A DNA stretch of 64,000 nt from Comamonas badia DSM 17552 (GTDB taxonomy: Bacteria > Pseudomonadota > Gammaproteobacteria > Burkholderiales > Burkholderiaceae_C): assembly GCF_000484635.1 (NCBI RefSeq), contig NZ_AXVM01000007.1, positions 1 through 64,000 of the forward strand, read 5' to 3'. The notes under the pieces are model-generated. The model worked only from the letters and a program-made list of their open reading frames with translations, made no database searches and was not told the origin of the DNA. Of this stretch, positions 1 through 13,030 are shown piece after piece (position 1 is the stretch's first letter; every line of letters starts with the position of its first letter). Both the position numbers and the translations under genes were made by a program.

Positions 1-734
1 GGGCCCTTGAGGCCCCGCACCTCGGGGAAGGCGTTTTCTTCGGGGCAGAAGACTTCGTCCAGCACGATTTCGCCGGTGATCGATGCGCGCAGACCCACCT
101 TGCCGTGGATGGCGGGGGCCGTGAGGCCCTTCCAGCCCTTTTCGAGCACGAAGCCGCGAATGGCGCCTTCATCGTCCTTGGCCCAGACGACGAAGACGTC
201 GGCAATCGGGCTGTTGGAGATCCACATCTTGCTGCCCGAGAGCGAATAGCCGCCGGGCACCTTCTTGGCGCGGGTGATCATGCTGCCGGGGTCCGAGCCG
301 TGGTTGGGCTCGGTCAGGCCAAAGCAGCCGATCCATTCGCCGCTGGCCAGCTTGGGCAGGTATTTCTGCTTGGTGGCCTCGTTGCCGAAGGCGTTGATGG
401 GCACCATCACCAGCGAGGACTGCACGCTCATCATGGAGCGGTAGCCCGAATCAACCCGCTCGACTTCGCGCGCGATCAGGCCGTAGCTGACGTAGTTCAG
501 GCCCGCGCCGCCGTATTGCTCGGGGATGGTGGGGCCGAGCAGGCCCAGCTCGCCCATTTCGCGGAAGATGGCCGGGTCGGTCTTCTCGTGGCGAAAGGCT
601 TCCTGCACGCGCGGCAGCAGTTTGTCCTGGCAGTAGGCGCGGGCGGCGTCCTGCACGGCGCGCTCGTCGGCTGTGAGCTGGTCGTGCAGGGCAAACGGGT
701 CTTGCCAGCTGAAGGGGGTCTTGGGCTTGGACAT
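1..734 (-). CDS. gcdH: Glutaryl-CoA dehydrogenase, C-terminus beyond the window
   Basis: An acyl-CoA dehydrogenase family flavoprotein that oxidatively decarboxylates glutaryl-CoA to crotonyl-CoA. About 244 N-terminal residues are present and the gene runs off the left edge. Visible features are the family N-terminus ([20 protein letters not shown]), the helical N-domain with [21 protein letters not shown], and the FAD-binding stretch [16 protein letters not shown]. These are more typical of GcdH than of short-chain acyl-CoA dehydrogenases. The ATG at 734 is preceded by GGAG with a 5-nt spacer. It is transcribed away from the sigma-54 regulator at 1051. Its presence beside a lactone/semialdehyde oxidation operon fits a pathway ending in glutaryl-CoA, but no shared promoter is visible. 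The family call is firm; the exact substrate is inferred from sequence resemblance. Confidence 0.88.
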
Positions 735-764
735 GGGTACTCCGGTGGGGTGGAAAAGGGAAGA

Positions 765-780
765 CTCGCTCGTGAGCGAG
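765..780. promoter_or_regulatory. Perfect 7-bp dyad upstream of gcdH
   Basis: CTCGCTC-GT-GAGCGAG is a perfect inverted repeat 31 nt upstream of the gcdH start codon. Its place in the leader fits an operator, or a small hairpin in the mRNA. The cognate protein is unknown. Confidence 0.35.
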
Positions 781-941
781 CCGCCTTGAACCTGCAGGAT
801 CAAGCACTTTGCATGCCATGCAGATTCAGGAGAAACGGCCGATGGCTGTCCGCCAGTTGCAAGCGCTTCTTCGTGGGCATTGACTGTCGTGGGGGGTGAC
901 CGTTTTCCGGTACGAACGTCCGCTTTCGTGCCCGATTCTCG

Positions 942-964
942 GGACACGCCCAAGGGTTTTGTCC
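942..964. promoter_or_regulatory. GGACA / TGTCC half-sites upstream of the regulator gene
   Basis: GGACA (942-946) and TTTTGTCC (957-964) lie just upstream of the FNR box and promoter of the sigma-54 regulator gene. The octamer TTTTGTCC is also present, inverted (GGACAAAA), at 5669-5676 between the two sigma-54 promoters. The simplest reading is an autoregulatory binding site for the regulator encoded at 1051. Confidence 0.45.
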
Positions 965-967
965 GGT

Positions 968-996
968 TTGATCCAGATCAAGGAACTGTGTCTAAT
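968..996 (+). promoter_or_regulatory. FNR/Anr box overlapping a sigma-70-like -35
   Basis: TTGATCCAGATCAA (968-981) is a perfect match to the FNR/Anr consensus TTGAT-N4-ATCAA. Its left half, TTGATC (968-973), is also a fair -35, with TCTAAT (991-996) 17 bp further on as -10. This places the box over the -35, a geometry expected for FNR repression rather than class II activation. The promoter would drive the regulator gene at 1051. The box is directly visible; the direction of control is inferred. Confidence 0.6.
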
Positions 997-1050
997 AGGT
1001 GACTCGATCCACCATGCACCGATCACGCCAGCCTGTATCAAACGAGGAAG

Positions 1051-3012
1051 ATGATGCCGTCGCCCAAGACTCCTTACCTCGGGTTCGAAAAGAACCCGCG
1101 GGGAGTGAAGACGCTGTGGGAGCGCTTCAATTCCGGCCTCATCGATCCGGAGACGCCCCGCAATGCCTACGAAACCCTGCTGCTGCAGGAGTGGCAGCGC
1201 TGCTCGGCCATCGGCGTGGACGTGGCGATGACGGTGGCGCGCAAGCTCAATGAAGAAGAGCTGCGCCAGCGTGCGGCGTCCAACCGCCTGCTGGTCGAAT
1301 CCGCCGTGCCCGTCATCCAGGACGTGGGCCGCTTCATCGATTTCGTCCCTGGCATCATCACCCTGACCGAACACACGGGCTGCATCCTGCATGTGGCGGG
1401 ACAGGCGCACCTCAAGGACGTGGCCGCGCAGCGCTCGGGCATCGTCTCGGGCTCGCTCTGGGGCGAGAAGAGCGCCGGCAACAACGGCATGGGTACGGTG
1501 CTGACGACGCTGCAGCCCGCGCATGTGCTGGCTTCGGAGCATTTTTGCGAAGGCTGGCAGGCCTGGTCGTGCGCGGCGGCGCCGATTTTTGATTTCGACG
1601 GCCGCTCTGTCATCGGCGTGGTCAACTTCACCACCACCGAGTCGCTGCAGCGTGAGCAGGGCCTGGCGCTGTGCGTGTCCATGGCCAAATCGATCTCGGC
1701 GCACATGGCGCTGCACCGCGCCTTCGAGCGCAATTACCTGACCGTGGCCTTCGGCGAGGCCACGCGCCGCTACCCGAATGATGACCTTCTGGCCCTTGAT
1801 CGCGCCGGAAATGTCGCTCTGCACACCCTCTCCGAGCGGATGCGCCGCACCGTCGAAGACTGGCAAGACGAAAGGGCGCGCCCCGCCGTCAAGGAATCGG
1901 TCAACGTCGTCACGCCCGAGACCGGCGAGGTGATCGGCAAAATTCTGCTGCTGACCCGGCCGGCCGGGTACGAGAAGGTGTTTCAGGCTGCCGTCCCTGT
2001 CCAGCCCTTGAGGGATGCGGTTCAGACCGCCTGCGAGTTCGGCAAATTCACCACCTGCGATCCGGATACCTGCCGCATGCTGGGTGAGCTTGAGCGTGTC
2101 GCGGCCAAGGATGTCAACATTCTGCTGCATGGCGAGACCGGCACCGGCAAGGATTTGATTGCCCGGCATATCCATGCCCGCAGCACGCGCCGGGGCGAGC
2201 CCTACCTGGCCGTCAACTGCGGCGCGATCAGCGCGGAACTCGTGGAGAGCACCCTGTTCGGCTACGTGCGCGGTGCGTTCTCCGGGGCCGATCCGCGCGG
2301 CCGGGCCGGGTACTTCGAATCCGCCGCTGGCGGCACCCTGTTTCTCGATGAAATCGGCGAGTTGCCGCTGGCCATGCAGGCTGCGCTGCTGCGCGTGCTG
2401 GAGGATGGCAGCTTCAGCCGCGTGGGCTCGACCCAGACCCTGCAGGCGCGCTGCCGCATCGTCGCGGCGACGCACCGCAATCTGGAGGCGCTGATCAGCC
2501 GCGGGCAATTCCGCCAGGATCTGTATTACCGCCTGAACATTTTCCAGAAGACCATCAAGCCCCTGCGCGAGCGCCCGGACGACATCCCCTTGCTGATCGA
2601 AAAATTCATCGGCGCAACCTGCCAGAAGCACGACCTGCAGCCCAACAGGTTCACGCTGGAGGCGCTCAAGACGCTGCAGTCCTACGCCTGGCCCGGCAAC
2701 GCGCGCGAACTGCGCAACGTGGTGGAGGCGGCGATGCTGCACACCGACGACGGACCCATGGGAACGGAGTCACTCCCGCCCGAATTGCGCACCCGGCCCG
2801 ATGCGGCGGCGCCCGCACCGTCTCCCGCAAGCGCCGGCCTGGGCGAGGCCACGCGCGAGTACGAGCGGCAATTGATCATCGGCATGCTGCAGAAGTACCG
2901 CAAGATCAACCATGTGGCCAAGGCGCTGGGCATTGCGCGCTCCACGCTTTACCGGAAATTTGCCGAACTCGATATTGACCAAAGCCTGTTCACGGGAGCC
3001 GACGCGCAATAG
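1051..3012 (+). CDS. AcoR-like sigma-54-dependent transcriptional activator
   Basis: A 653-residue enhancer-binding protein of the AcoR/MimR type. The N-terminal 300 or so residues form a GAF-like sensory region. The AAA+ domain has Walker A GETGTGKD near residue 361, a sigma-54-contact loop reading GAFSGA (canonical GAFTGA) near 408, and Walker B GGTLFLDEIGEL near 428. A Fis-type helix-turn-helix ends the protein (KINHVAKALGIARSTLYRKF). It probably activates the two divergent operons whose sigma-54 promoters lie at 5550-5566 and 5778-5794; the inducer is unknown but may be a ketone or alcohol. It converges on the hydrolase gene at 3061. The ATG at 1051 was chosen over the adjacent ATG at 1054; the two are not separable by eye. 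Confidence 0.88.
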   Translation: MMPSPKTPYLGFEKNPRGVKTLWERFNSGLIDPETPRNAYETLLLQEWQRCSAIGVDVAMTVARKLNEEELRQRAASNRLLVESAVPVIQDVGRFIDFVPGIITLTEHTGCILHVAGQAHLKDVAAQRSGIVSGSLWGEKSAGNNGMGTVLTTLQPAHVLASEHFCEGWQAWSCAAAPIFDFDGRSVIGVVNFTTTESLQREQGLALCVSMAKSISAHMALHRAFERNYLTVAFGEATRRYPNDDLLALDRAGNVALHTLSERMRRTVEDWQDERARPAVKESVNVVTPETGEVIGKILLLTRPAGYEKVFQAAVPVQPLRDAVQTACEFGKFTTCDPDTCRMLGELERVAAKDVNILLHGETGTGKDLIARHIHARSTRRGEPYLAVNCGAISAELVESTLFGYVRGAFSGADPRGRAGYFESAAGGTLFLDEIGELPLAMQAALLRVLEDGSFSRVGSTQTLQARCRIVAATHRNLEALISRGQFRQDLYYRLNIFQKTIKPLRERPDDIPLLIEKFIGATCQKHDLQPNRFTLEALKTLQSYAWPGNARELRNVVEAAMLHTDDGPMGTESLPPELRTRPDAAAPAPSPASAGLGEATREYERQLIIGMLQKYRKINHVAKALGIARSTLYRKFAELDIDQSLFTGADAQ

Positions 3013-3060
3013 CGCGCGCCCAAAAGCGCTCTCTTGCCCGCGGGCGATGGCGACCCTGGT

Positions 3061-3876
3061 TCAAGGCGACGCTGAACCAAAGTGCTCGTCGAGCAGCGAC
3101 AGGATGGCGGTGGTCTGGTCCGTCATCACCCAATGGCTTGCGCTCTTCAATTCGACGTACCGGGCGCCCCGGATGCGTTCGGCCAGCATGCGGCCGTTCT
3201 CCGGTGGAATCAGTGCGTCCTCGTCGCCATGCACGACCAAGGTGGGCGCGGCAATGGCGCCGAGATGGTGCCAGCCTGACCAGCCCATCAGACCGTACAG
3301 CTGCGCCGCATGATCGCGCGGATCACACGGTGTCGCCAGGCGCACGGCATGATCGGCCGCAATCACGTCCGCAGGCGTCGCCGCGGCATAGACATGCGGG
3401 CGCATCAACGCCAGCGCTTCTGCCGGCGTGTTGCGATGCTTTGAAAACAATAGCTGCAGAACCTGCGACTGCGCCTTTACCGAGCCCATCGCACCGCCGT
3501 GCGTGGCCAGCAAGGCCAGCCGGCGCGTTTGGCCCGGATGGCTCAGCACGAATTGCTGCGCGATCATGCCACCCAGTGAAAACCCGACGACATCCACCGG
3601 CTCCGTCTCGCCCGCCGCGTCCAGGACGGCGGCCACGTCGTCGGCCATCGTCGGGATGCGGTGAACCAGCGCCCTGCGCACCTGCGTTCGGCCCACGCCG
3701 CGGTTGTCCAGCAGGATGACGCGCCGACGCGCGGCCAGCGCCGGGGCGATGCGAAACCACATCGCCGAACCGCACCCGAGGCCCATCACCAGCACCAGCG
3801 CGGGCCGTCCGTGACCCAGCGCTTGCCACCAGATGCGTTCGCCCGTGCCGCGCTCGACCCAGCCGGTGTCCGTCAT
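3061..3876 (-). CDS. Alpha/beta hydrolase
   Basis: A 271-residue alpha/beta-fold hydrolase. Visible elements are the oxyanion region VMGLGCGSAMW, the nucleophile elbow GFSLGG, an acid in VHGDEDALIPP and a late His in SASHWVM. There is no signal peptide, so it should be cytosolic. Its ATG overlaps the stop of the PHA-synthase-like gene (ATGA at 3873-3876), making it the last gene of the leftward operon phaE-like, phaC-like, hydrolase. In this setting it could hydrolyse an ester, a lactone or a polyester oligomer; the substrate is not readable from sequence. Its last codons contain a 13-nt match to the end of the palindromic element at 12868-13030. A 14-nt stretch at 3444-3457 equals part of the intergenic repeat at 23409-23422. 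Confidence 0.85.
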   Translation of the reverse strand: MTDTGWVERGTGERIWWQALGHGRPALVLVMGLGCGSAMWFRIAPALAARRRVILLDNRGVGRTQVRRALVHRIPTMADDVAAVLDAAGETEPVDVVGFSLGGMIAQQFVLSHPGQTRRLALLATHGGAMGSVKAQSQVLQLLFSKHRNTPAEALALMRPHVYAAATPADVIAADHAVRLATPCDPRDHAAQLYGLMGWSGWHHLGAIAAPTLVVHGDEDALIPPENGRMLAERIRGARYVELKSASHWVMTDQTTAILSLLDEHFGSASP

Positions 3877-4943
3877 ACCGAGCGCGGCGCCAGCCAGTGC
3901 ACCAGGGCCGGCCACATCCGCGTCAAGGCGCCGCGGCCCGTGACGAGACCGACATGCCCGCCTTTGATGATGATTTCCTCCTTGTCGCGGCTGCCCACGA
4001 GGAGATCCAGCAAGGGGCGCGAAGCGGCGTACGGCACGATGTGGTCCTCGCGCGCGACCAGATGAAGCGCCGATGCGTTGATGCGGCTCGGCTTGGCGTG
4101 CAGCCCGCCTATCGTCCACGTGCCCTGCACCAGCCGATTGGTGCGCAGGAAATCACGCACCAGCTCGCGGAATACGCCGCCCGCCATCGGTATGTTGTCC
4201 ATCTCCCACTTTCCCATGTGCAGGTTCGAGCGCACGGCCTCGGCCTGCCCGACCTGGTTGAGCAGCTGCAGCGCACCAGCGGTCTTGCCGAATGGGCGCA
4301 GGGCCCGCATGGCGGTCTGCATCCATTCGGCCGGGACGTTGCCGTATTGCTGCAGCAGCCCCTCTTCATCAAAATGCGGACCCATCCACGCCTTGAATGA
4401 AGCCAATCCGTCGCTGTCGACGGGTGTGGCGATGCAAACCAGGTTCTTCAGCGCGGTGTGCTCGTGCAGCGAGGCGTACAGCACCGACAGCAGTCCGCCG
4501 AGGCAGTAACCCACCACCGAGAGATCGCGCTCTCCCGAGTGTTCGAGCACGCGCGCGATGCACGCCGGCAGCTTGTCGAGCACATGGTCGGCCAGCGTGA
4601 GCGACGCGTGCTCGCGCCGCGGACGCCCCCACTCCACCATGTAGACGTCGAAGCCGGCATCGAGCAGGAACTCGACCATGCTCTGGCCCGGCATCAGGTC
4701 GAGAACGGTGGGCTGGTTGATGATCGACGACACCATCAGCAATGGCACGCGGTACACGGAGTCGGTGCGGGCGCGGAAGTGGACCAGCTGGAGCGTGCCG
4801 TGCGTCATGAGCACGGACTTCGGACTGCGGCCCAGGGGGGCTGCCAGCGCATCGATCTCGGTGCCGACGTTGCCGAAGGATTCGAGCGCGCGCGCGGTGG
4901 CCCCGGCGTTGAGGCGCAGGGTGCGGATGCTGGTGCGTGCCAT
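3873..4943 (-). CDS. phaC: Class III poly(3-hydroxyalkanoate) synthase-like protein
   Basis: A 356-residue PhaC family protein whose length matches class III catalytic subunits. The lipase-like box is GYCLGG with Cys147. Asp300 (in AREDHIVP) and His330 (in GGHVGLV) complete the triad, almost at the class III reference positions (Cys149, Asp302, His331 in Allochromatium). Class III enzymes polymerise hydroxyacyl-CoA together with PhaE. Here a short PhaE-like gene lies 7 nt upstream and an alpha/beta hydrolase overlaps downstream. The operon has its own sigma-54 promoter facing the Baeyer-Villiger operon. No phaA or phaB is nearby, so this need not be the main storage synthase. It might polymerise or transfer hydroxyacyl groups derived from lactones. 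The family is firm; the role is inferred. Confidence 0.82.
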   Translation of the reverse strand: MARTSIRTLRLNAGATARALESFGNVGTEIDALAAPLGRSPKSVLMTHGTLQLVHFRARTDSVYRVPLLMVSSIINQPTVLDLMPGQSMVEFLLDAGFDVYMVEWGRPRREHASLTLADHVLDKLPACIARVLEHSGERDLSVVGYCLGGLLSVLYASLHEHTALKNLVCIATPVDSDGLASFKAWMGPHFDEEGLLQQYGNVPAEWMQTAMRALRPFGKTAGALQLLNQVGQAEAVRSNLHMGKWEMDNIPMAGGVFRELVRDFLRTNRLVQGTWTIGGLHAKPSRINASALHLVAREDHIVPYAASRPLLDLLVGSRDKEEIIIKGGHVGLVTGRGALTRMWPALVHWLAPRSV

Positions 4944-4950
4944 GGGGCGC

Positions 4951-5463
4951 TTACCGATCGGTGCGCCGTGCGCTGGAACGCGCAGGACGCACTGGCTGGG
5001 GTGCGGGTGCGTTTGCCTTTCTGACGGGCTTTGGTGGAGACTCCGCGTGCGGCGCCGGCGCTTGCGGCGGCTTTCGGTCGCGCTTGGCACGGGGCAGCGC
5101 CGCGCCGGGCACGCCCTGCGCGGCGAGTGCGTCACGCAGCCGGTAGAGCGCGGCGGCGACCGAGGCGAGCCCATCCTCGACCCGGCCCAGGCGCTCGTCG
5201 AGCATCTCCAGGTCGGTGCGCGACGGCAGGTTGGCCAGGCCCAATCCGGCCTGCGCCGCCTCGACGTACAGCCGGTGCAGGATGCGCCCCTCGTCCACCT
5301 GGCGCGCCAGCGTCGGACCCACGCGTTCGTCCCGCATCCACTGGGTGACGACCTCGCTCCATGCGCCTTCGCCCTTGGCCACCCATTCACGCCAGACGGC
5401 GATCAAACTGGGCGGCAAGGGCGCGGACTGCGGATCGGAGGGACCAGGTTTGGAATCACTCAT
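4951..5463 (-). CDS. Short PhaE-like PHA synthase subunit
   Basis: A 170-residue protein. Residues 10-110 are mostly helical (WREWVAKGEGAWSEVVTQWM, RQVDEGRILHRLYVEAAQA) and resemble PhaE or phasin-like subunits. The C-terminal 60 residues are rich in Pro, Ala, Lys and Arg and are probably disordered. Typical PhaE proteins are about twice as long, so this is a reduced form. The identification rests largely on its position directly before the class III synthase-like gene (7-nt gap). The ATG at 5463 was chosen over an in-frame start 21 nt upstream because only the later one fits the usual length. It is the first gene after the leftward sigma-54 promoter. Confidence 0.62.
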   Translation of the reverse strand: MSDSKPGPSDPQSAPLPPSLIAVWREWVAKGEGAWSEVVTQWMRDERVGPTLARQVDEGRILHRLYVEAAQAGLGLANLPSRTDLEMLDERLGRVEDGLASVAAALYRLRDALAAQGVPGAALPRAKRDRKPPQAPAPHAESPPKPVRKANAPAPQPVRPARSSARRTDR

Positions 5464-5549
5464 GGTGGCTCGATGGCTGTTCAAGGCGCATCGCGTACTG
5501 AGATCGGCTCAGTGCCGGGTTTGCATCGTAGTGCATTCGACGGAACGGG

Positions 5550-5566
5550 TGCAAGCACCGTGCCGA
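5550..5566 (-). promoter_or_regulatory. Sigma-54 promoter of the leftward operon
   Basis: On the minus strand the sequence reads CGGCACG-GTGC-TTGCA, one mismatch from the sigma-54 consensus TGGCACG-N4-TTGCA, with GG-N10-GC spacing. It lies 87 nt upstream of the phaE-like ATG. The AcoR-like regulator at 1051 is the obvious partner. Confidence 0.72.
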
Positions 5567-5650
5567 CGGTGAGCGCACGCGCCACGCGTGCCCGAATCAC
5601 CCAGTTTCCGCCCCGTGCCGCTGCGGCGGTCGGGCTGATTGCCCCAGCCC

Positions 5651-5705
5651 TTTTGTCGCGGCCCGGGAGGACAAAACTGTCCGACCCCCTGGCTTGATTC
5701 GGACA
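5651..5705. promoter_or_regulatory. Candidate activator-binding region between sigma-54 promoters
   Basis: Several linked dyads are visible: TTTTGTC (5651-5657) with GACAAAA (5670-5676), GGACA-AAAC-TGTCC (5669-5682), and TGTCCGA (5678-5684) with TCGGACA (5699-5705). The cluster lies about 75-135 nt from each -24/-12 element, the usual distance for enhancer sites of sigma-54 activators. Shared half-sites upstream of the regulator gene support its assignment. Confidence 0.6.
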
Positions 5706-5777
5706 TTTCACGCGCGACGACTCGGTTCAGGCGGCGAAAACCCATGGGTAAACCCGAGGGTTGATCGTCGCTTGGGA

Positions 5778-5794
5778 TTGGCACGGTTTCTGCC
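5778..5794 (+). promoter_or_regulatory. Sigma-54 promoter of the BVMO operon
   Basis: TTGGCACG-GTTT-CTGC has the invariant GG (-24) and GC (-12) separated by 10 nt and one mismatch in the -12 block. It lies about 97 nt upstream of the SMP-30 gene, the first gene of the rightward operon. Confidence 0.7.
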
Positions 5795-5890
5795 CTTCTC
5801 TTGGCAGCGCCGGGCAGTCCTGAGTTCCCCGACCCGCTTGGCGCGTTGCGGGCTTTGCCCGCCCACCCCGACTACATGGAGACCGAGGAA

Positions 5891-6790
5891 ATGACGAAAC
5901 GAGACATCAAGGTTGTGACGGATGGCCTGACCTATCTGGAAGGCCCGCGCTGGCATCAGGGCGCGCTATGGTTTGTGGATTTCTACACCTACGGGGTGTA
6001 CCGCGTGAACCCGGATGGTTCGGCGGAGAAGGTGGCGCATGTGGAGCAGCAGCCATCCGGCCTGGGCTGGCTGCCGGACGGCCGCATGCTGGTGGTCTCG
6101 ATGAAGGACCGCAAGGTGCTGCGCCAGGAGAAGGACGGCAGTCTGGTGGTGCACGCGGACATCTGGGACCAGTGCGCCGGCCATGCGAACGACATGGTGG
6201 TCGCTCCCAGCGGCAACGCCTACGTGGGCAACTTCGGCTACGACCTGATGGGCGGCGCGCCGCACAAGAACACCACGCTGGTGCTGGTGCGCCCGGACGG
6301 CAGCTCGCAGGTGGTCGCCGACGGGCTGGCGTTTCCCAACGGCATGGTCGTCACGCCGGACCAGAAGCGGCTCATCGTCAACGAGCTGTTCGGCAACCGC
6401 ATCTCGCAGTTCGACATCAAGGCCGACGGCACGCTGGGGCCGCGGCGCGACTTCGCCAACTATGGCGAGCTCGGCGACGAGGGCGACGTCGGCAAGCGCA
6501 TCGAGCGCGCGACGATTCTGCCGGACGGCCTGGCGCTGGATGCCGAAGGCGCGGTCTGGTTTGCCGACACCATCCACCAGCGCGCGGTGCGCATGGCCGA
6601 GGGCGGAAAGATCCTCGACGAAGTCCACACCGCACCCGACGGCATCTTCGCCGTCGGCCTGGGCGGCGCCGACGGCAAGACGCTCTTCATGTGCGCGGCG
6701 CCCGACTGGGACGAAGCCAAGCGCACCGTAGCGCGCGAGGGCCGCATGCTGGCCACCACGGTCGCCGTGGGCCATGCCGGAACCCCTTGA
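5891..6790 (+). CDS. SMP-30/gluconolactonase family lactonase
   Basis: A 299-residue six-bladed beta-propeller protein of the SMP-30/LRE family. These enzymes use a single divalent metal to hydrolyse lactones. Metal-ligand type residues are visible in TYLEGPRWH (Glu near 16), GHANDMVV (Asn), FPNGMVV and LPDGLALD (Asp). The ATG at 5891 was chosen because GAGG lies 4-6 nt before it; the ATG at 5876 has no ribosome-binding site. It is the first gene after the sigma-54 promoter and lies directly upstream of the Baeyer-Villiger monooxygenase gene. This makes it the likely enzyme that opens the lactone or ester made by the BVMO. The exact substrate is unproven. Confidence 0.83.
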   Translation: MTKRDIKVVTDGLTYLEGPRWHQGALWFVDFYTYGVYRVNPDGSAEKVAHVEQQPSGLGWLPDGRMLVVSMKDRKVLRQEKDGSLVVHADIWDQCAGHANDMVVAPSGNAYVGNFGYDLMGGAPHKNTTLVLVRPDGSSQVVADGLAFPNGMVVTPDQKRLIVNELFGNRISQFDIKADGTLGPRRDFANYGELGDEGDVGKRIERATILPDGLALDAEGAVWFADTIHQRAVRMAEGGKILDEVHTAPDGIFAVGLGGADGKTLFMCAAPDWDEAKRTVAREGRMLATTVAVGHAGTP

Positions 6791-6834
6791 TCAAGCCCGG
6801 CCGGATTTTCAACCCTCTTTTTCAGGATTCCATC

Positions 6835-8460
6835 ATGGACAACATCACCACCAACAATTCGGTCAACGACACCCTCGATGTCTTGATCATCGGCGCCGGC
6901 TTCACCGGGCTGTACCAGCTGCACGCGCTGCGCGAGCGGGGCTTCAAGGTGCACTTGGTCGATGCCGCCAAGGACGTCGGCGGCATCTGGCACTGGAACT
7001 GCTACCCCGGCGCCCGCGTGGACACGCATTGCCAGATCTACCAGTACTCCATGCCCGAGCTGTGGCAGGAATTCGAATGGCGCGAGCGCTTTCCCAACTG
7101 GGAGCAGATGCGCGAATACTTCAAGTTCGTCGACCGCAAGCTGGACTTGAGCCGCAGCATCAGCTTCGGCGCGCGCGTGCGCACGGCCACCTTCGACGAG
7201 GACAAGCGCGAATGGACGGTGTACATGCTGGGCCACCAGCCGATACGCGCGCGCTACGTCGTCGCCAACCTGGGCTTCGCGGCCAAGCCCTACATCCCGA
7301 AGATCGAGGGCATGGACCGCTTCAAGGGCGAGATCCACCACACCGCCCTCTGGCCCCAGGGCGGGCTGGACATGACCGGCAAGCGCGTGGCCGTCATCGG
7401 TACCGGTGCCAGCGGCGTGCAGGTGTCGCAGGAAGCGGCGCTGGTGGCCAAGCAGCTCACCACCTTCCAGCGCACGCCCAACCTGGCGATTCCCATGCAC
7501 AACCAGCAGTACAGCGCCGAGGACAACCGCGCCATGCGCCCCGAACTGCCGGCCGCGTTCGAGCGCTGCCGCAACGCGTACGCGGGCTTCGACTTCGACT
7601 TCATCCCCAAGAACGCCACCGAGGTGTCCGCCGAGGAGCGCCAGGCCACGCTGCAGGCGCTGTGGGACAAGGGCGGCTTCTATTACTGGTTGGGCAACTT
7701 CCAGGACTACCTGTTCGACGACAAGGCCAACGACTATGTCTACGACTTCTGGCGCGACAAGGTGCGCGCGCGCATCAAGGATCCGCAGGTGGCAGACAAG
7801 CTCGCGCCCATGAAGAAGCCCCACCCCTGGGGCGCCAAGCGGCCGTGCCTGGAGCAGTGGTACTACGAAATCTTCAACCAGGACAACGTCACACTGGTGG
7901 ATCTGGGCGAGAAACCCATCCTCGGCATCACCGAAAAAGGCATCGTCACGGCCGACGGCGAGACCGAGTTCGACATCATTGCCCTGGCCACCGGTTTCGA
8001 CGGGGTCTCGGGCGGGCTGACCAACATCGACTTCCGCGACGGCCAGGGCCGCACCTTCAAGGAAAAATGGTCGTCCGGCGTGCGCACGCATCTGGGCGTG
8101 TCGGCGGCGGGCTTTCCCAATCTGCTGTTCGGCTACGGGCCGCAATCGCCGGCCGGCTTCTGCAACGGGCCGACCAGCGCCGAAGTGCAGGGCGAGTTGC
8201 TCGTCGACCTGCTCGGCCACCTGCGCGACAAGGGCATCACGCGCATCGAGGCCACTGAAGCGGCGCAGGAAGACTGGTTCAAGCTGGTCGAGGACTTCTG
8301 GGCGATGTCGCTGTTCCCCAAGGCCAAGTCCTGGTACCAGGGCGCCAACATTCCGGGCAAGACCCAGCAGTCGCTGAACTTCCCCAACGGCCTGCCGACC
8401 TACACCGCGAAGTTCAAGGAAGCCGCGGCCAACGGCTACGCCGGATTCGTCCTGAACTGA
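6835..8460 (+). CDS. Baeyer-Villiger (FAD/NADPH) ketone monooxygenase
   Basis: A 541-residue class B flavoprotein monooxygenase. The first Rossmann motif is GAGFTG (residues 20-25). The BVMO fingerprint FKGEIHHTALWP is at 163-174 and the second dinucleotide motif GTGASG is at 189-194. ATGFD near the C-terminal third matches the family's conserved ATG motif. The length and the DVGGIWHWNCYPGARVDTHC stretch resemble cyclopentanone/cyclohexanone-type enzymes. It inserts one oxygen atom next to a carbonyl, giving a lactone from a cyclic ketone or an ester from a linear one. It lies between a lactonase and an alcohol dehydrogenase gene, which supports a ketone catabolic role. The substrate ring size cannot be read from the sequence. 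Confidence 0.9.
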   Translation: MDNITTNNSVNDTLDVLIIGAGFTGLYQLHALRERGFKVHLVDAAKDVGGIWHWNCYPGARVDTHCQIYQYSMPELWQEFEWRERFPNWEQMREYFKFVDRKLDLSRSISFGARVRTATFDEDKREWTVYMLGHQPIRARYVVANLGFAAKPYIPKIEGMDRFKGEIHHTALWPQGGLDMTGKRVAVIGTGASGVQVSQEAALVAKQLTTFQRTPNLAIPMHNQQYSAEDNRAMRPELPAAFERCRNAYAGFDFDFIPKNATEVSAEERQATLQALWDKGGFYYWLGNFQDYLFDDKANDYVYDFWRDKVRARIKDPQVADKLAPMKKPHPWGAKRPCLEQWYYEIFNQDNVTLVDLGEKPILGITEKGIVTADGETEFDIIALATGFDGVSGGLTNIDFRDGQGRTFKEKWSSGVRTHLGVSAAGFPNLLFGYGPQSPAGFCNGPTSAEVQGELLVDLLGHLRDKGITRIEATEAAQEDWFKLVEDFWAMSLFPKAKSWYQGANIPGKTQQSLNFPNGLPTYTAKFKEAAANGYAGFVLN

Positions 8461-8538
8461 CCGCCACCTGGTCTGCCGCCACCACCGTGCTTTTCGGCCG
8501 TGGCGGCCGCCCCATGTCCTGCTCCTCTGGAGATTACC

Positions 8539-9672
8539 TTGGCTTTACTGAATTACGGCAACCCCATCCGCTTTGACTTTGGCGCCATCACCCATCTGCC
8601 CGATGGCCTGGTCCGGCTGGGCGTGCGCCGCCCCCTGCTCGTGACCGACCGCGGCGTGAGCGCCAGCGGCCTGGTCGATCGCCTGCTGGCCACCCTGCCG
8701 GCCGATCGGCGGGCCACGGTTGCGATCTACGACGACACCCCGGGCAACCCGACGGAGAACGCGGTGCACGACGCACTGGCGATCTACCAGGCGCACGATT
8801 GCGACGGCGTCATCGGCCTGGGCGGCGGCTCTTCGATCGACCTGGGCAAGGCGGTGGCGCTGCTGGCCAAATGTCCGTCGCCACTGGCGCAGTACGACCC
8901 GCTGCAAGGCGGCAACAAGCTCGTCAAGGACGTGGCGCCCATGGTGGCCATACCGACCACGGCGGGCACCGGCAGCGAGGCCTCGATCGGCTTTCTGATC
9001 AGCATGAACGACGGGCGCAAGATGACCTTCGCCAACCCGCGCTTCCTGCCCGCGCTGTCCATCTGCGATCCGGAGCTGACGCTGAGCCTGCCGGCCCGCT
9101 TGACCGCCGCCACCGGCATGGACGCGATCACGCATTGCATCGAGGGCGTGCTGGCCCCTGGCGGCAACGCGCCGGCCGACGGCATCGGGCTGGATGGCCT
9201 GTGGCGCGGCTGGCGCAACCTGCCGCGCGCCGTGGCCGACGGCTCGGATCGCGATGCGCGCTGGCAGATGATGATGGCCGCCACCGAAGGGGCGCTCGCC
9301 TTCACCAAGGGGCTGGGCGCGGTGCATTCGATGAGCCACGCCGCCGGTCACGTCGAATCGCTGCACCTGCACCACGGCACGCTCAACGCCGTGATCCTGC
9401 CCACCGTGCTGCGCTTCAACGAAGCGGGCAGCGAGGAGGCTTACGCCCGGTTGCGCCAGGCCATGGGTCTCGCCGAAGGCGCCGACATCGCGCGCGCGGT
9501 CGAGGCCATGAACGAGCGCCTGGGCATCCCCAAGGGTCTGGCATCCCTGGGCGTGACCGAAAGCATGATCGACGAGCTGGTGCCGCACGCCGTCGTTGAT
9601 CTCTCGACGCGCACCAACCCGCGGCCCGTGGACGCCGGCGACTTCGGACGCCTGTTTCGCGAGGCCATGTAG
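8539..9672 (+). CDS. Iron-containing (type III) alcohol dehydrogenase
   Basis: A 377-residue Fe-ADH family enzyme. It has the NAD-binding GGGSSIDLGKAVA, the IPTTAGTGSEAS motif, and the metal ligands in MDAITHCIE and SHAAGHVESLHLHHG. I place the start at TTG 8539 because GGAG precedes it at 8529-8532 and the protein then begins at the family's usual position (ALLNYGNPIRFDFG). A GTG at 8500 would add 13 Ala/Pro-rich residues without a ribosome-binding site. In this operon it probably oxidises the omega-hydroxyacid released from the lactone to the semialdehyde. A more general aliphatic alcohol role is possible. Confidence 0.86.
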   Translation: MALLNYGNPIRFDFGAITHLPDGLVRLGVRRPLLVTDRGVSASGLVDRLLATLPADRRATVAIYDDTPGNPTENAVHDALAIYQAHDCDGVIGLGGGSSIDLGKAVALLAKCPSPLAQYDPLQGGNKLVKDVAPMVAIPTTAGTGSEASIGFLISMNDGRKMTFANPRFLPALSICDPELTLSLPARLTAATGMDAITHCIEGVLAPGGNAPADGIGLDGLWRGWRNLPRAVADGSDRDARWQMMMAATEGALAFTKGLGAVHSMSHAAGHVESLHLHHGTLNAVILPTVLRFNEAGSEEAYARLRQAMGLAEGADIARAVEAMNERLGIPKGLASLGVTESMIDELVPHAVVDLSTRTNPRPVDAGDFGRLFREAM

Positions 9673-9720
9673 CCATCGCGCCGGCGCCGCGCCGGCGGCC
9701 GCGCACAAGGAGACATCCAA

Positions 9721-11367
9721 ATGAATGCACTGATGGGGCGGATGATGCAGATGCCGCTGCTGATCTCGGCGCTGATCACGCACGCGGCGCGCCACCACGC
9801 CGAAACCGAAATCGTCTCTCGGCTTGAAGACGGGCGGACGCACCGCTACACCTACCGCGATGCGGAGCTGCGCTCGCGCCAGTTGGCGCAGGCGCTGGGA
9901 CGCCTGGGCACCGAGCCCGGCGACCGCATAGCCACGCTGGCCTGGAATGGCCATCGCCACTTCGAGATCTACTTTGGCGCCTCGGGCTCGGGGCGCGTGT
10001 GCCACACGATCAACCCGCGCCTGTTTCCCGAGCAGATCACCTGGATCGTCAACCACGCCCAGGACCGGGTGCTGTGCTTTGACCTGTCCTTCCTGCCGCT
10101 GATCGAGAAGATCGCGCCGCAACTGGCTTCGGTACGCCACTTCGTCGCGCTGTGCGAGCGCGCGCAGATGCCCGGGCAAACCACGCTGGCGAACCTGCAG
10201 TGCTACGAAGACCTGGTTGGCGCGGAAGACGGCCACTACGCCTGGCCGAGCTTCGATGAAAACACCGCATCCGGCATCTGCTACACCTCGGGCACCACGG
10301 GCAACCCCAAGGGCGCCGTCTACAGCCACCGCTCGACGCTGCTGCATGCGCTGGCGGCGTCGCTGCCCGACACGCTGAACTTGTCGGCGCAGGACACGAT
10401 CCTGCCGGTCGTTCCCATGTACCACGTCAACGCCTGGGGCATTCCCTATTCGGCCGCGCTGGTGGGCTGCAAGCTGGTGCTGCCGGGCCCGCATCTGGAT
10501 GGCCAGTCGCTGTACGAGCTGTTCGAGGCCGAGGGCGTGACCATGGCCGCGGGCGTGCCGACCGTGTGGCTGGCCGTGCTCGGCCACATCCAGGACAAGA
10601 AACTCAAGTTCTCGACCCTGCAGCGCCTGGTTTTTGGCGGCTCGGCCGCGCCGCCGTCGATGATGAAAACCTTCCAGCGGGACTACGGCGTCGATGTCAT
10701 CCACTGCTGGGGCATGACCGAGATGTCGCCGCTGGGCACCTTCGCGCGGCTGAAGAACGGCCAGTCGGCGCTGGGCGAAGAAAGTCAGCGGCGCATCCTG
10801 CAAAAGCAGGGGCGCGCGATCTTCGGCGTGGACATGGCGATTCTGGGCGACGACGGCCAGCCCCTGCCCTGGGACGGCGAGCAGTCGGGCAACCTGATCG
10901 TGCGCGGTCCCTGGGTCATCGCGCAGTACTTCGGCCATGACGATTCGCCGCTGATCGACGTTGGCGGCCAGCGCTGGTTCCCCACCGGCGACGTCGCCAC
11001 CATCGATGTGTACGGCGGCATGCAGATCACCGATCGCAGCAAGGACGTCATCAAGTCCGGTGGCGAGTGGATCAGCTCGATCGAGCTGGAAAACATCGCC
11101 ATGGCGCATCCGGCGGTGCACGAGGCCGCGGTCATCGGCTGCAAGCACCCCAAATGGGACGAGCGTCCGCTGCTGGTGGTGGTCAAAAAGCCCGGCACTG
11201 AGGTCACGCGCGAGGCGCTGCTGGATTTTTTCAACGGCCAGATCGCCAAATGGCAGATCCCCGACGACGTGGCCTTCGTCGATGAAATCCCGCACACCGC
11301 GACCGGAAAGATCCAAAAACTCACCCTGCGCAAGCAGTTCGCGGATTACCGCCTGCCCACGGCCTGA
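9721..11367 (+). CDS. AMP-forming acyl-CoA ligase
   Basis: A 548-residue ANL-superfamily ligase that activates a carboxylic acid to its CoA thioester. The phosphate-binding loop is [18 protein letters not shown] (from about residue 188), followed by GMTEMSPLG, the hinge SGGEWISS and the C-terminal lysine motif [11 protein letters not shown]. It resembles medium-chain and 3-(methylthio)propionyl-CoA ligases. AAGGAG lies upstream of ATG 9721. It could make glutaryl-CoA or adipyl-CoA from the oxidised product, or hydroxyacyl-CoA for the synthase-like protein of the divergent operon. The substrate is unknown. Confidence 0.87.
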
Positions 11368-11383
11368 GCCCGAAAGCATAGCC

Positions 11384-12829
11384 ATGAACACCACCACTTA
11401 CCCAGACACCCGGCTGCTGATTGACAACGAATGGATCGATGCGCGCGGCGGCAGGACGCAGGACGTGCGCAATCCGGCGACCGGTGCCGTCATCGGCACG
11501 ATGGCACGCGCTTCGATCGAAGACCTGGACGCGGCGCTGGCGGCGGCGCGGCGCGGCTTTGCCGCCTGGCGCGGCATGCCTGCACACGAACGCGCGGCCA
11601 CCATGCGCCGCGCCGCCGCGCTGGTGCGCGAGCGCGCGGACGACATCGCCCGCACGATGACGCTGGAGCAAGGCAAGCCGCTGGCCGAGGCGCGTTATGA
11701 GGTCACTTCCAGCGCCGACATCATCGACTGGTTTGCCGATGAAGGACTGCGCGTCTATGGGCGCATCGTGCCCTCGCGCAACCTGGCGGCGCAGCAGCTG
11801 GTGATGAAGGAACCCGTGGGCCCGGTGGCAGCCTTCACGCCCTGGAACTTTCCGATCAACCAGGTGGTGCGCAAGCTCGCCGCGGCGCTGGCCAGCGGCT
11901 GCTCCTTTTTGCTCAAGGTACCGCAGGAAACTCCGGCCTCGCCGGCGGCGCTGCTGGCCGCTTTCGTCGATGCCGGCACGCCGGCGGGTGTCGTCGGGCT
12001 CGTGGCTGGCCCATCGGCGGAAATTTCCGAACACCTGATTGCCAGCCCCATCATCCGCAAGGTCACCTTCACCGGCTCCACGCCGGTGGGCAAGGAACTG
12101 GCGGCGCTGGCCGGCCGGCACATGAAGCGCGTGACAATGGAGCTCGGCGGCCATGCACCGGTCATCGTCGCCGAGGACGCCGACATCGCGCTTGCCGTCA
12201 AGGCCAGCGGCGGCGGCAAGTTCATCAACGCCGGGCAGGTCTGCGTCTCGCCCACGCGCTTTCTGGTGCATCGCAGCATCGCGCGGGAGTTCGAAGAGGT
12301 GTTTGCCAAGTATGCCGAACGCATCAAGGTCGGCGACGGCCTGGCGCAGGGCACGCGCATGGGGCCGCTGGTCAACACGCGCCGGGTCGATGCCATGCTG
12401 GCGCTGGTGGCGGACGCCCGAACCAAGGGCGCGCGCGTGGTCACGGGCGGCGAGCGCATCGGCGGCGAAGGCAGCTTCTTCACGCCCACGCTGCTGGCCG
12501 ATGTGCCACTGGATGCGGCCGTATTCAACGATGAGCCCTTCGGCCCGATCGCGGCGATGCGCCCCTTCGACACGCTGGACGAAGCGATCGCCGAGGCCAA
12601 CCGCCTGCCGTTCGGGCTTGCAAGCTATGCGTTCACGCGCTCGATCAGGACCGCGCACGAACTGGCACAGCGCCTGGAGGTGGGCATGCTCTGGATCAAC
12701 CAGCCGGCGCTGCCATCGGCCGAGATGCCGTTTGGCGGCGTCAAGGATTCCGGCTACGGCACCGAGGGCGGGCCGGAGGCGATGGAACCCTATCTGGTCA
12801 CCAAGGCGGTGTCCATTCTCGGGGTCTGA
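11384..12829 (+). CDS. NAD(P) aldehyde dehydrogenase, GabD/DavD type
   Basis: A 481-residue aldehyde dehydrogenase of the succinate/glutarate-semialdehyde group. It has the cofactor stretch [20 protein letters not shown], the catalytic Glu in MELGGHAPV and the catalytic Cys in [11 protein letters not shown]. The C-terminal [15 protein letters not shown] is typical of GabD-like enzymes. It begins 16 nt after the acyl-CoA ligase and ends the operon. In context it would oxidise an omega-oxoacid to a dicarboxylate. A C5 semialdehyde giving glutarate would connect directly to the glutaryl-CoA dehydrogenase at the left edge. The family is firm; the chain length is inferred. Confidence 0.87.
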
Positions 12830-12867: not shown

Positions 12868-13030
12868 AGGCAACGCTGAACAAGTCCCTCGCACGCGGCG
12901 CATCCCTGGCTTGGGCGGTCTGCGTCGTTGCAAATGCTCGCCATGGCTGCGGCCATGTCTGTGCTTTGCGCCTCGCAGCCCATCCCAAGCCAGGGCGCGC
13001 CGCATCGCGGGGACTTATTCAGCGTCGCCT
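12868..13030. repeat. 163-bp imperfect palindromic element (MITE-like)
   Basis: Two arms of about 48 nt, 12868-12915 and 12984-13030, are near-perfect inverted repeats. The left arm starts AGGCAACGCTGAACAAGTCC and the right arm, read inverted, starts AGGCGACGCTGAATAAGTCC. The centre is also partly self-complementary, so the whole block could fold into one long hairpin. It has no transposase and no gene. It lies directly after the aldehyde dehydrogenase operon and before dcd, so it could end transcription of the operon. It looks like a mobile non-autonomous repeat; no clear target duplication is visible. Confidence 0.65.

Follow-up and report, generated by a model that had tools for sequence, protein, structure and literature searches.

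In the 3.68-Mb, 24-contig genome of Comamonas badia DSM 17552, contig C7 (NZ_AXVM01000007.1) opens with a 64-kb stretch, referred to below as the window, that carries at positions 1051–12829 a putative operon for ketone breakdown and, divergent from it, an operon coding for a PhaE/PhaC pair that resembles polyhydroxyalkanoate (PHA) synthases. The catabolic part is of a known kind, and the PhaE/PhaC part is an unusual addition that is probably co-regulated with it. With moderate confidence we favour the explanation that this is a cpn-type ketone cluster with a co-controlled PhaE/PhaC pair, which would store an acyl-coenzyme A (acyl-CoA) of the pathway.

Gene content of the cluster

Genes were called from open reading frames, Pfam and NCBIfam profile searches and PDB matches. 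All nine genes that a preliminary description of this DNA had named within 1051–12829 were confirmed as open frames and by the profile searches. In the rightward operon, the gene for an SMP-30 lactonase is followed by those for a Baeyer–Villiger monooxygenase (BVMO), an iron-containing alcohol dehydrogenase (Fe-ADH), an acyl-CoA ligase and an aldehyde dehydrogenase (ALDH). The leftward operon runs from the PhaE-like gene through the PhaC-like gene to an alpha/beta hydrolase gene, the last two overlapping by 4 nucleotides.

3..734, minus strand: gcdH, glutaryl-CoA dehydrogenase, residues 1-244; PDB glutaryl-CoA dehydrogenase, E 4e-128; the gene runs past the contig start
1051..3012, plus strand: AcoR-like sigma-54 activator (GAF, AAA+, Fis helix-turn-helix); PF00158, 212.6 bits
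3061..3876, minus strand: alpha/beta hydrolase, PcaD/esterase type; below the cut-off of all NCBIfam models among the matches listed (25 of 36)
3873..4943, minus strand: PhaC-like, class III-like; TIGR01836, 255.3 bits (cut-off 365.3); PF07167, 30.7 (cut-off 23.7)
4951..5463 (or 5484), minus strand: short PhaE-like subunit, 170 amino acids, by likeness to clade relatives
5550..5565, minus strand: sigma-54-like promoter of the phaE-phaC-hydrolase operon, CGGCACGGTGCTTGCA; rank 2 in the window, score 14.5
5678..5705, no strand: candidate activator site TGTCCGA-N14-TCGGACA; the sole such inverted pair in 64 kb
5779..5794, plus strand: sigma-54-like promoter of the SMP-30/BVMO operon, TGGCACGGTTTCTGCC; rank 1 in the window, score 14.6
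5891..6790, plus strand: SMP-30/gluconolactonase-type lactonase; PF08450, 146.5 bits
6835..8460, plus strand: type I BVMO by its motifs; PDB 6jdk, E 4e-210; fingerprint at residues 163-174
8500..9672, plus strand: Fe-ADH, 4-hydroxybutyrate dehydrogenase-like; NF058672, 491.2 bits (cut-off 500)
9721..11367, plus strand: acyl-CoA ligase, 3-(methylthio)propionyl-CoA ligase family; NF005426, 961.6 bits (cut-off 822)
11384..12829, plus strand: ALDH, PF00171; best model succinate-semialdehyde dehydrogenase, TIGR01780, 466.5 (cut-off 646.35)

The catabolic operon and its relatives

The gene types of a cpn-type set, namely BVMO, lactonase, hydroxyacid and oxoacid dehydrogenases and a sigma-54 regulator, are all present. 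The cpn cluster of Comamonas sp. NCIMB 9872, described by Iwaki and colleagues in 2002, is said to comprise a BVMO, a lactone hydrolase and hydroxyvalerate and oxovalerate dehydrogenases, and reportedly has an NtrC-type regulator, CpnR, and sigma-54 elements before its divergent operons. The likeness to this cluster is one of gene content; the window adds the SMP-30 lactonase, the acyl-CoA ligase, gcdH and the PhaE/PhaC-like operon, and no cyclopentanol dehydrogenase was seen among the genes of 1–12829. According to the review PMC10649493, the cyclopentanone monooxygenase of strain NCIMB 9872 performs the lactonising step of cyclopentanol breakdown.

In the window BVMO we found F163, G165, H169, W173 and P174 (FxGxxxHxxxWP) together with G20-x-G22-x-x-G25. 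The FxGxxxHxxxW[PD] fingerprint and the GxGxxG nucleotide-binding motif are the marks of type I BVMOs, and by these motifs the enzyme can be placed in that type. The same genome codes for a second BVMO (contig C2, 298146–299738), which is 39% identical to the one in the window.

BVMO relatives were found in 268 loci, of which 80 were kept and 188 left out; 41 of those kept include 9.9 kb of flanking DNA on each side. The closest relatives among the 80 are 72, 67, 67 and 62% identical, and at E 1e-180 the BVMO was matched in two of the 399 genomes of the family sample, our own included. An SMP-30 gene at 50% or above stands in 9 of the 80 loci, directly before the BVMO gene in seven; the activator is matched over at least 500 residues in ten loci and the ligase at no less than 38% in six. 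Fe-ADH, ALDH and activator occur together in four loci, those of Bradyrhizobium mercantei (L060), an Alcaligenaceae metagenome-assembled genome (L061), Cupriavidus sp. IDO (L062) and C. necator SHC 2-3 (L113). The first three are like the window in SMP-30 (78–81% identical), BVMO (67–72%), Fe-ADH and ALDH, and their sigma-54-type regulators are 56% (L061) and 32% (L060 and L062) identical; they lack PhaE/PhaC, however, and the Fe-ADHs of L060 and L062 are far from 4-hydroxybutyrate dehydrogenase. L113 and Cupriavidus plasmid pRK1-1 (L057) carry nearly the same segment, which is like the window in regulator (59%), BVMO (54%), Fe-ADH and ALDH, but SMP-30 is replaced there by an alpha/beta hydrolase, and neither PhaE/PhaC nor a match to the ligase is present.

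Glutarate-linked neighbours

The 5' part of gcdH (3–734, minus strand) lies left of the activator gene and is divergent from it. Similar neighbours were found in some of the related loci. Both L057 and L113 have a glaH gene, for glutarate hydroxylase, two genes past the ALDH gene on the opposite strand, and in L061 a CsiD/GlaH gene (PF08943, 415 bits) stands just before the BVMO gene; all three of the 56–59% regulator relatives (L057 and L113 being nearly the same segment) thus carry glaH. In the actinobacterial loci L083 and L108, genes for a ligase, a regulator and a glutaryl-CoA dehydrogenase are divergent from SMP-30/BVMO, and the gcdH product of L108 matches PDB 3sf6 with E 3e-165. Counted over the 80 BVMO loci, glaH is present in two (L061 and L113; it is also found in L057) and gcdH (47%) in two (L083 and L108), weaker acyl-CoA dehydrogenase matches (27–41%) in seven other loci having been excluded from the gcdH count.

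Because of these neighbours, few as they are, we prefer the C5 route from cyclopentanone to glutaryl-CoA over a C4 or C6 route, and the product of the pathway is most likely glutarate or glutaryl-CoA derived from a C5 ring. The preliminary description had read the enzyme families as leading from ketone to lactone, hydroxyacid, oxoacid and dicarboxylate; family membership agrees with this sequence of steps, which can now be narrowed, with fair likelihood, to C5 compounds and glutarate.

The control region

The activator matches PF01590, PF00158 and PF18024, the domains expected of an AcoR-like protein, and it has relatives in the BVMO loci L057 (59% identical) and L061 (56%). Its sigma-54 contact loop reads GAFSGA, not GAFTGA, as do those of the L057 and L061 relatives. 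An rpoN gene is present in the genome, where the sigma-54 DNA-binding domain is matched once. The earlier proposal of one sigma-54 regulator is supported.

To locate promoters, all 16-mers on both strands of the 64 kb were scored with a single hand-made sigma-54 weight table. The two highest scores, 14.6 at 5779 (plus strand) and 14.5 at 5565 (minus strand), both fall in the 406-base gap between phaE and the SMP-30 gene; the third is 14.4, so that the margin is small. These sites had been described as facing each other, but they are back to back, running from 5565 to 5550 and from 5779 to 5794. The strict sigma-54 consensus has no match in the window, nor is GGCAC-N6-TGC, a looser core, over-represented there (4 observed, 8.65 expected); the weight therefore rests on the position of the sites and on a shared heptamer. 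This heptamer, TGTCCGA/TCGGACA, occurs nine times in the window, and its single inverted pair with a spacing of up to 20 bases, at 5678–5705, lies between the two promoters. A weaker sigma-54-like site (1030–1015, minus strand, score 13.5) is directed at the gcdH copy.

Alongside the gap we examined four further control regions, those of L057, L060, L061 and L062, which belong to related SMP-30 and/or BVMO operons with an adjoining sigma-54-type regulator; L090 and L113 were outside this comparison. TGTCCGA/TCGGACA was the only heptamer common to all five regions. After first-order shuffling, repeated 500 times, an average of 0.018 heptamers per set, counted over all heptamers, reached five of five. 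This figure overstates the case, because the motif had been seen by eye before the five were chosen out of ten regions and the remaining five are without it. Sigma-54-like sites scoring 12.7–15.4 were found in the control regions of L057, L060, L061 (two), L062 and L091, and none in those of L083 and L108. Judged by sequence alone, the synthase and ketone operons appear to be under common control.

The PhaE/PhaC pair and its clade

The PhaC-like protein is similar to class III PHA synthases in its length of 356 amino acids, its Cys-Asp-His residues and its PhaE-like partner. In the alignment these residues are intact (GYCLGG at 145, with C147; DHIVP, with D300; and the His of GGHVG). It differs from class III in scoring below the curated cut-off of TIGR01836, in having a PhaE of only 170–177 amino acids, and in its position in the trees, where it joins a clade (support 100/99) that is distinct from the rows included for class III-like, class IV and archaeal proteins; its place inside this clade is unsure because of its long branch.

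At E 0.001 the window PhaE is matched by neither Pfam nor NCBIfam, and PF09712 fails to match it even at E 10, so its identity rests on its relatives. In tblastn searches it matched the clade PhaEs of L007, L037 and L038 with E 1e-7 to 1e-8, and the others more weakly or not at all; it is 36–38% identical over 101–119 residues to the PhaEs of family f212. When PF09712 (cut-off 25.7) was applied to three clade PhaEs, that of L037 passed with 27.2 bits, the match covering the final 79 of 311 positions, and those of L007 (24.9) and L039 (22.4) failed. Comparison with the relatives also suggests that ATG 5463 is the start of PhaE in preference to TTG 5484.

At E 1e-40 we found PhaC relatives in four of 300 genomes of the order (our own and three of another branch) and in none of eight other genomes of the genus; in the class they were found in four of 369 at E 1e-58, our own included, in the phylum in 32 of 398 at E 1e-50 (11 at 42% or more besides our own), and in one alphaproteobacterial order in 18 of 366 at E 1e-65. 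A scan of a genome-contig collection with PhaC alone gave no relative, and a search of plasmids with PhaE gave no match.

We read 31 clade loci: nine of family f88, 18 of f85, three of f212 and one of Novosphingobium (pNL2). PhaC is flanked by PhaE-like and GNAT genes in all 31, and 26 also have an alpha/beta hydrolase gene, of a single type, close to PhaC. A compact operon of small PhaE, PhaC and GNAT, mostly with an alpha/beta hydrolase, is thus conserved (L037–L044, L051–L053, L189–L207 and L007). A WS/DGAT wax-ester synthase lies within about 10 kb in 16 loci (9/9 of f88, 7/18 of f85, 0/3 of f212 and 0/1 of pNL2), and a CYP102-type P450 fusion (at least 40%) in 12; the 1100-residue neighbour in Bradyrhizobium-like loci had been considered as an RND pump, which was ruled out when it proved to be a P450-reductase fusion. 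In a whole-genome search of 11 genomes (nine f88, two f85), WS/DGAT was near PhaC in all 11 and was the sole copy of the genome in ten. The only WS/DGAT of our own genome is on another contig than PhaC, and the operon in the window is without the GNAT gene of the clade. The window hydrolase is 26–28% like the one adjoining PhaE in all nine f88 loci, which is weak evidence since alpha/beta hydrolases are so numerous. We also noticed that on a Rhizobium leguminosarum plasmid (L162, 2019–5032) an Fe-ADH gene, its product 33% identical to the window Fe-ADH, directly precedes PhaE and PhaC.

The proposed pathway

On the favoured explanation, the BVMO would convert cyclopentanone into delta-valerolactone, which SMP-30 and/or the alpha/beta hydrolase would open to 5-hydroxyvalerate (5HV). 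Fe-ADH would then oxidise 5HV to 5-oxovalerate and ALDH would oxidise this to glutarate, the ligase would form glutaryl-CoA, and GcdH would convert it to crotonyl-CoA. The AcoR-like activator, acting at one site between the divergent sigma-54 promoters, would switch on both operons. The co-induced ligase may also make 5-hydroxyvaleryl-CoA, the simplest candidate for the stored acyl-CoA; PhaE/PhaC would take the pathway acyl-CoA into a polyester or oligoester, and the hydrolase would cut the polymer back.

Storage of 5-hydroxyvaleryl-CoA is chemically plausible, because some PHA synthases take 5HV and the ligase of the operon could make the CoA ester. Passages of PMC11478691 describe PHA synthases that polymerise 5HV from valerolactone, and PMC5459778 reports a 5HV polymer made by Methylocystis parvus from added omega-hydroxyacids. 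That PhaE/PhaC itself polymerises 5-hydroxyvaleryl-CoA is nevertheless a tentative idea and rather doubtful. The company of the clade, a fatty-acid-hydroxylase-type P450 and a wax-ester synthase, hints at hydroxyacid substrates with a distant hydroxyl. A bolder proposal, quite unlikely in our opinion, would make the clade a new line of polyester synthases specialised for hydroxyacyl-CoAs in which hydroxyl and carboxyl are widely separated. In Bradyrhizobium-like genomes, with their wax-ester synthase, the hydroxyacids would be subterminal hydroxy fatty acids from the neighbouring CYP102-type P450; in the window, 5-hydroxyvalerate would come from BVMO and lactonase, and a ring-ketone sigma-54 regulon would have recruited the pair as an overflow store.

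Several observations weigh against the favoured explanation. The preliminary description had counted a PhaC gene that is not conserved beside BVMO genes of related genomes among the findings that would refute it. We looked for a conserved pairing from both sides and had to reject it: PhaC or PhaE was found in none of the 80 BVMO loci and a window-type BVMO in none of the 31 PhaC-clade loci, so that the pairing appeared in no other locus examined. The placing of a polyester synthase in the ketone regulon is upheld as far as the synthase-like pair behind a divergent sigma-54-like site is concerned, but not by conservation, and since PhaC and BVMO are not conserved together, storage or buffering is only a possible role. 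The shared heptamer is absent from five other control regions (the second region of L061, L091, L100, L083 and L108). The Fe-ADHs of L060, L062 and L057 reach only 226–257 bits for 4-hydroxybutyrate dehydrogenase, so the hydroxyacid dehydrogenase step is not conserved in kind. The ligase model takes its name from 3-(methylthio)propionate and that of Fe-ADH from 4-hydroxybutyrate, and from such families the substrate specificity of the operon cannot be read. The window copy of gcdH is cut by the contig end, and none of the ten genes of 1–12829 is a cyclopentanol dehydrogenase, the region past the contig start being unseen and the rest of the genome not searched. Finally, in passages of PMC11478691, the synthase PhaC-Ra gave no 5HV polymer and no class III enzyme appears.

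Alternative explanations

The lack of pairing agrees with an alternative that we regard as possible, although clearly less probable than the favoured explanation: phaE-phaC-hydrolase is unrelated to the ketone pathway and has, for example, the same role as in the PhaE-PhaC-GNAT clade, which might concern lipids or wax esters, the two operons being neighbours by chance or sharing no more than a control region. The constant GNAT partner, the wax-ester synthase near 16 of the 31 clade loci and the long branch of the window PhaC agree with this. The high-scoring sigma-54-like site directed at phaE, the candidate activator site between both promoters and the absence of the clade's GNAT gene from the window operon speak against it.

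The substrate may be something other than a C5 ring: a C4 lactone that is degraded through 4-hydroxybutyrate to succinate, a C6 ketone that yields adipate, or else a ketone with a linear or branched chain. The profile scores point that way, with Fe-ADH at 491.2 of 500 bits for 4-hydroxybutyrate dehydrogenase, succinate-semialdehyde dehydrogenase as the best model for ALDH and a ligase that fits the 3-(methylthio)propionyl-CoA model, but the gcdH and glaH neighbours in the window, L057, L113, L061, L083 and L108 indicate glutarate and make another substrate unlikely.

With gcdH in the cluster, PhaE/PhaC might also be an ordinary short-chain PHA synthase draining 3-hydroxybutyryl-CoA that derives from the crotonyl-CoA released by GcdH; class III synthases use 3-hydroxybutyryl-CoA. 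This is very unlikely, as a class I synthase that passes its cut-off (704.7 against 622.65) is already coded in the genome, besides another that stays below it (531.6), and none of the ten genes of 1–12829 is phaA, phaB or phaJ. Similarly, it is hardly probable that the PhaC-like protein is a thioesterase-like hydrolase or an acyltransferase making no polymer: its low TIGR01836 score, the short PhaE and the acyltransferases and hydrolases around the clade would suit such an enzyme, but the Cys nucleophile box, Asp and His are retained and a PhaE-like gene adjoins PhaC in all 31 clade loci.

Origin and surroundings of the cluster

None of the close relatives sampled was seen to carry the cluster, and a lateral gain is therefore likely. 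At the gcdH end, the start of contig C12 (3–731) holds the same 731 nucleotides of gcdH, identical but with a different upstream region, and the genes next upstream there resemble those at gcdH in G301 and G304, two genomes of the same genus. The end of contig C13 (37119–37616) has 501 of the same gcdH bases and a 3' half that can be assigned to either copy; the assembly thus breaks inside gcdH at two contig starts and one contig end. On the other side of the cluster, a 161-bp stretch (12869–13029) resembling a miniature inverted-repeat transposable element lies between the ALDH gene and dcd. Its inverted ends of 19 nucleotides, detected by a search that tolerated mismatches but not by a plain repeat search, are alike in 17 of 19 positions, and the 19-mer has three further exact copies elsewhere in the genome.

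Significance

In the literature searched, judged by titles and the beginnings of abstracts, we found no paper describing this cluster, most subscription journals lying outside the coverage, and no description of a PhaE-PhaC-GNAT operon. In PMC11478691 and PMC5459778, polymers of other than 3-hydroxyacids were obtained from strains that had been fed lactones or hydroxyacids. Should the synthase be co-induced with the ketone operon and accept an omega-hydroxyacyl-CoA, nature would have in this cluster a dedicated way of turning a ring ketone into a non-3-hydroxy polyester. Even otherwise, the PhaE-PhaC-GNAT operon, often near wax-ester synthase and CYP102-type genes, is a target for finding the role of 'PHA synthase' paralogues.

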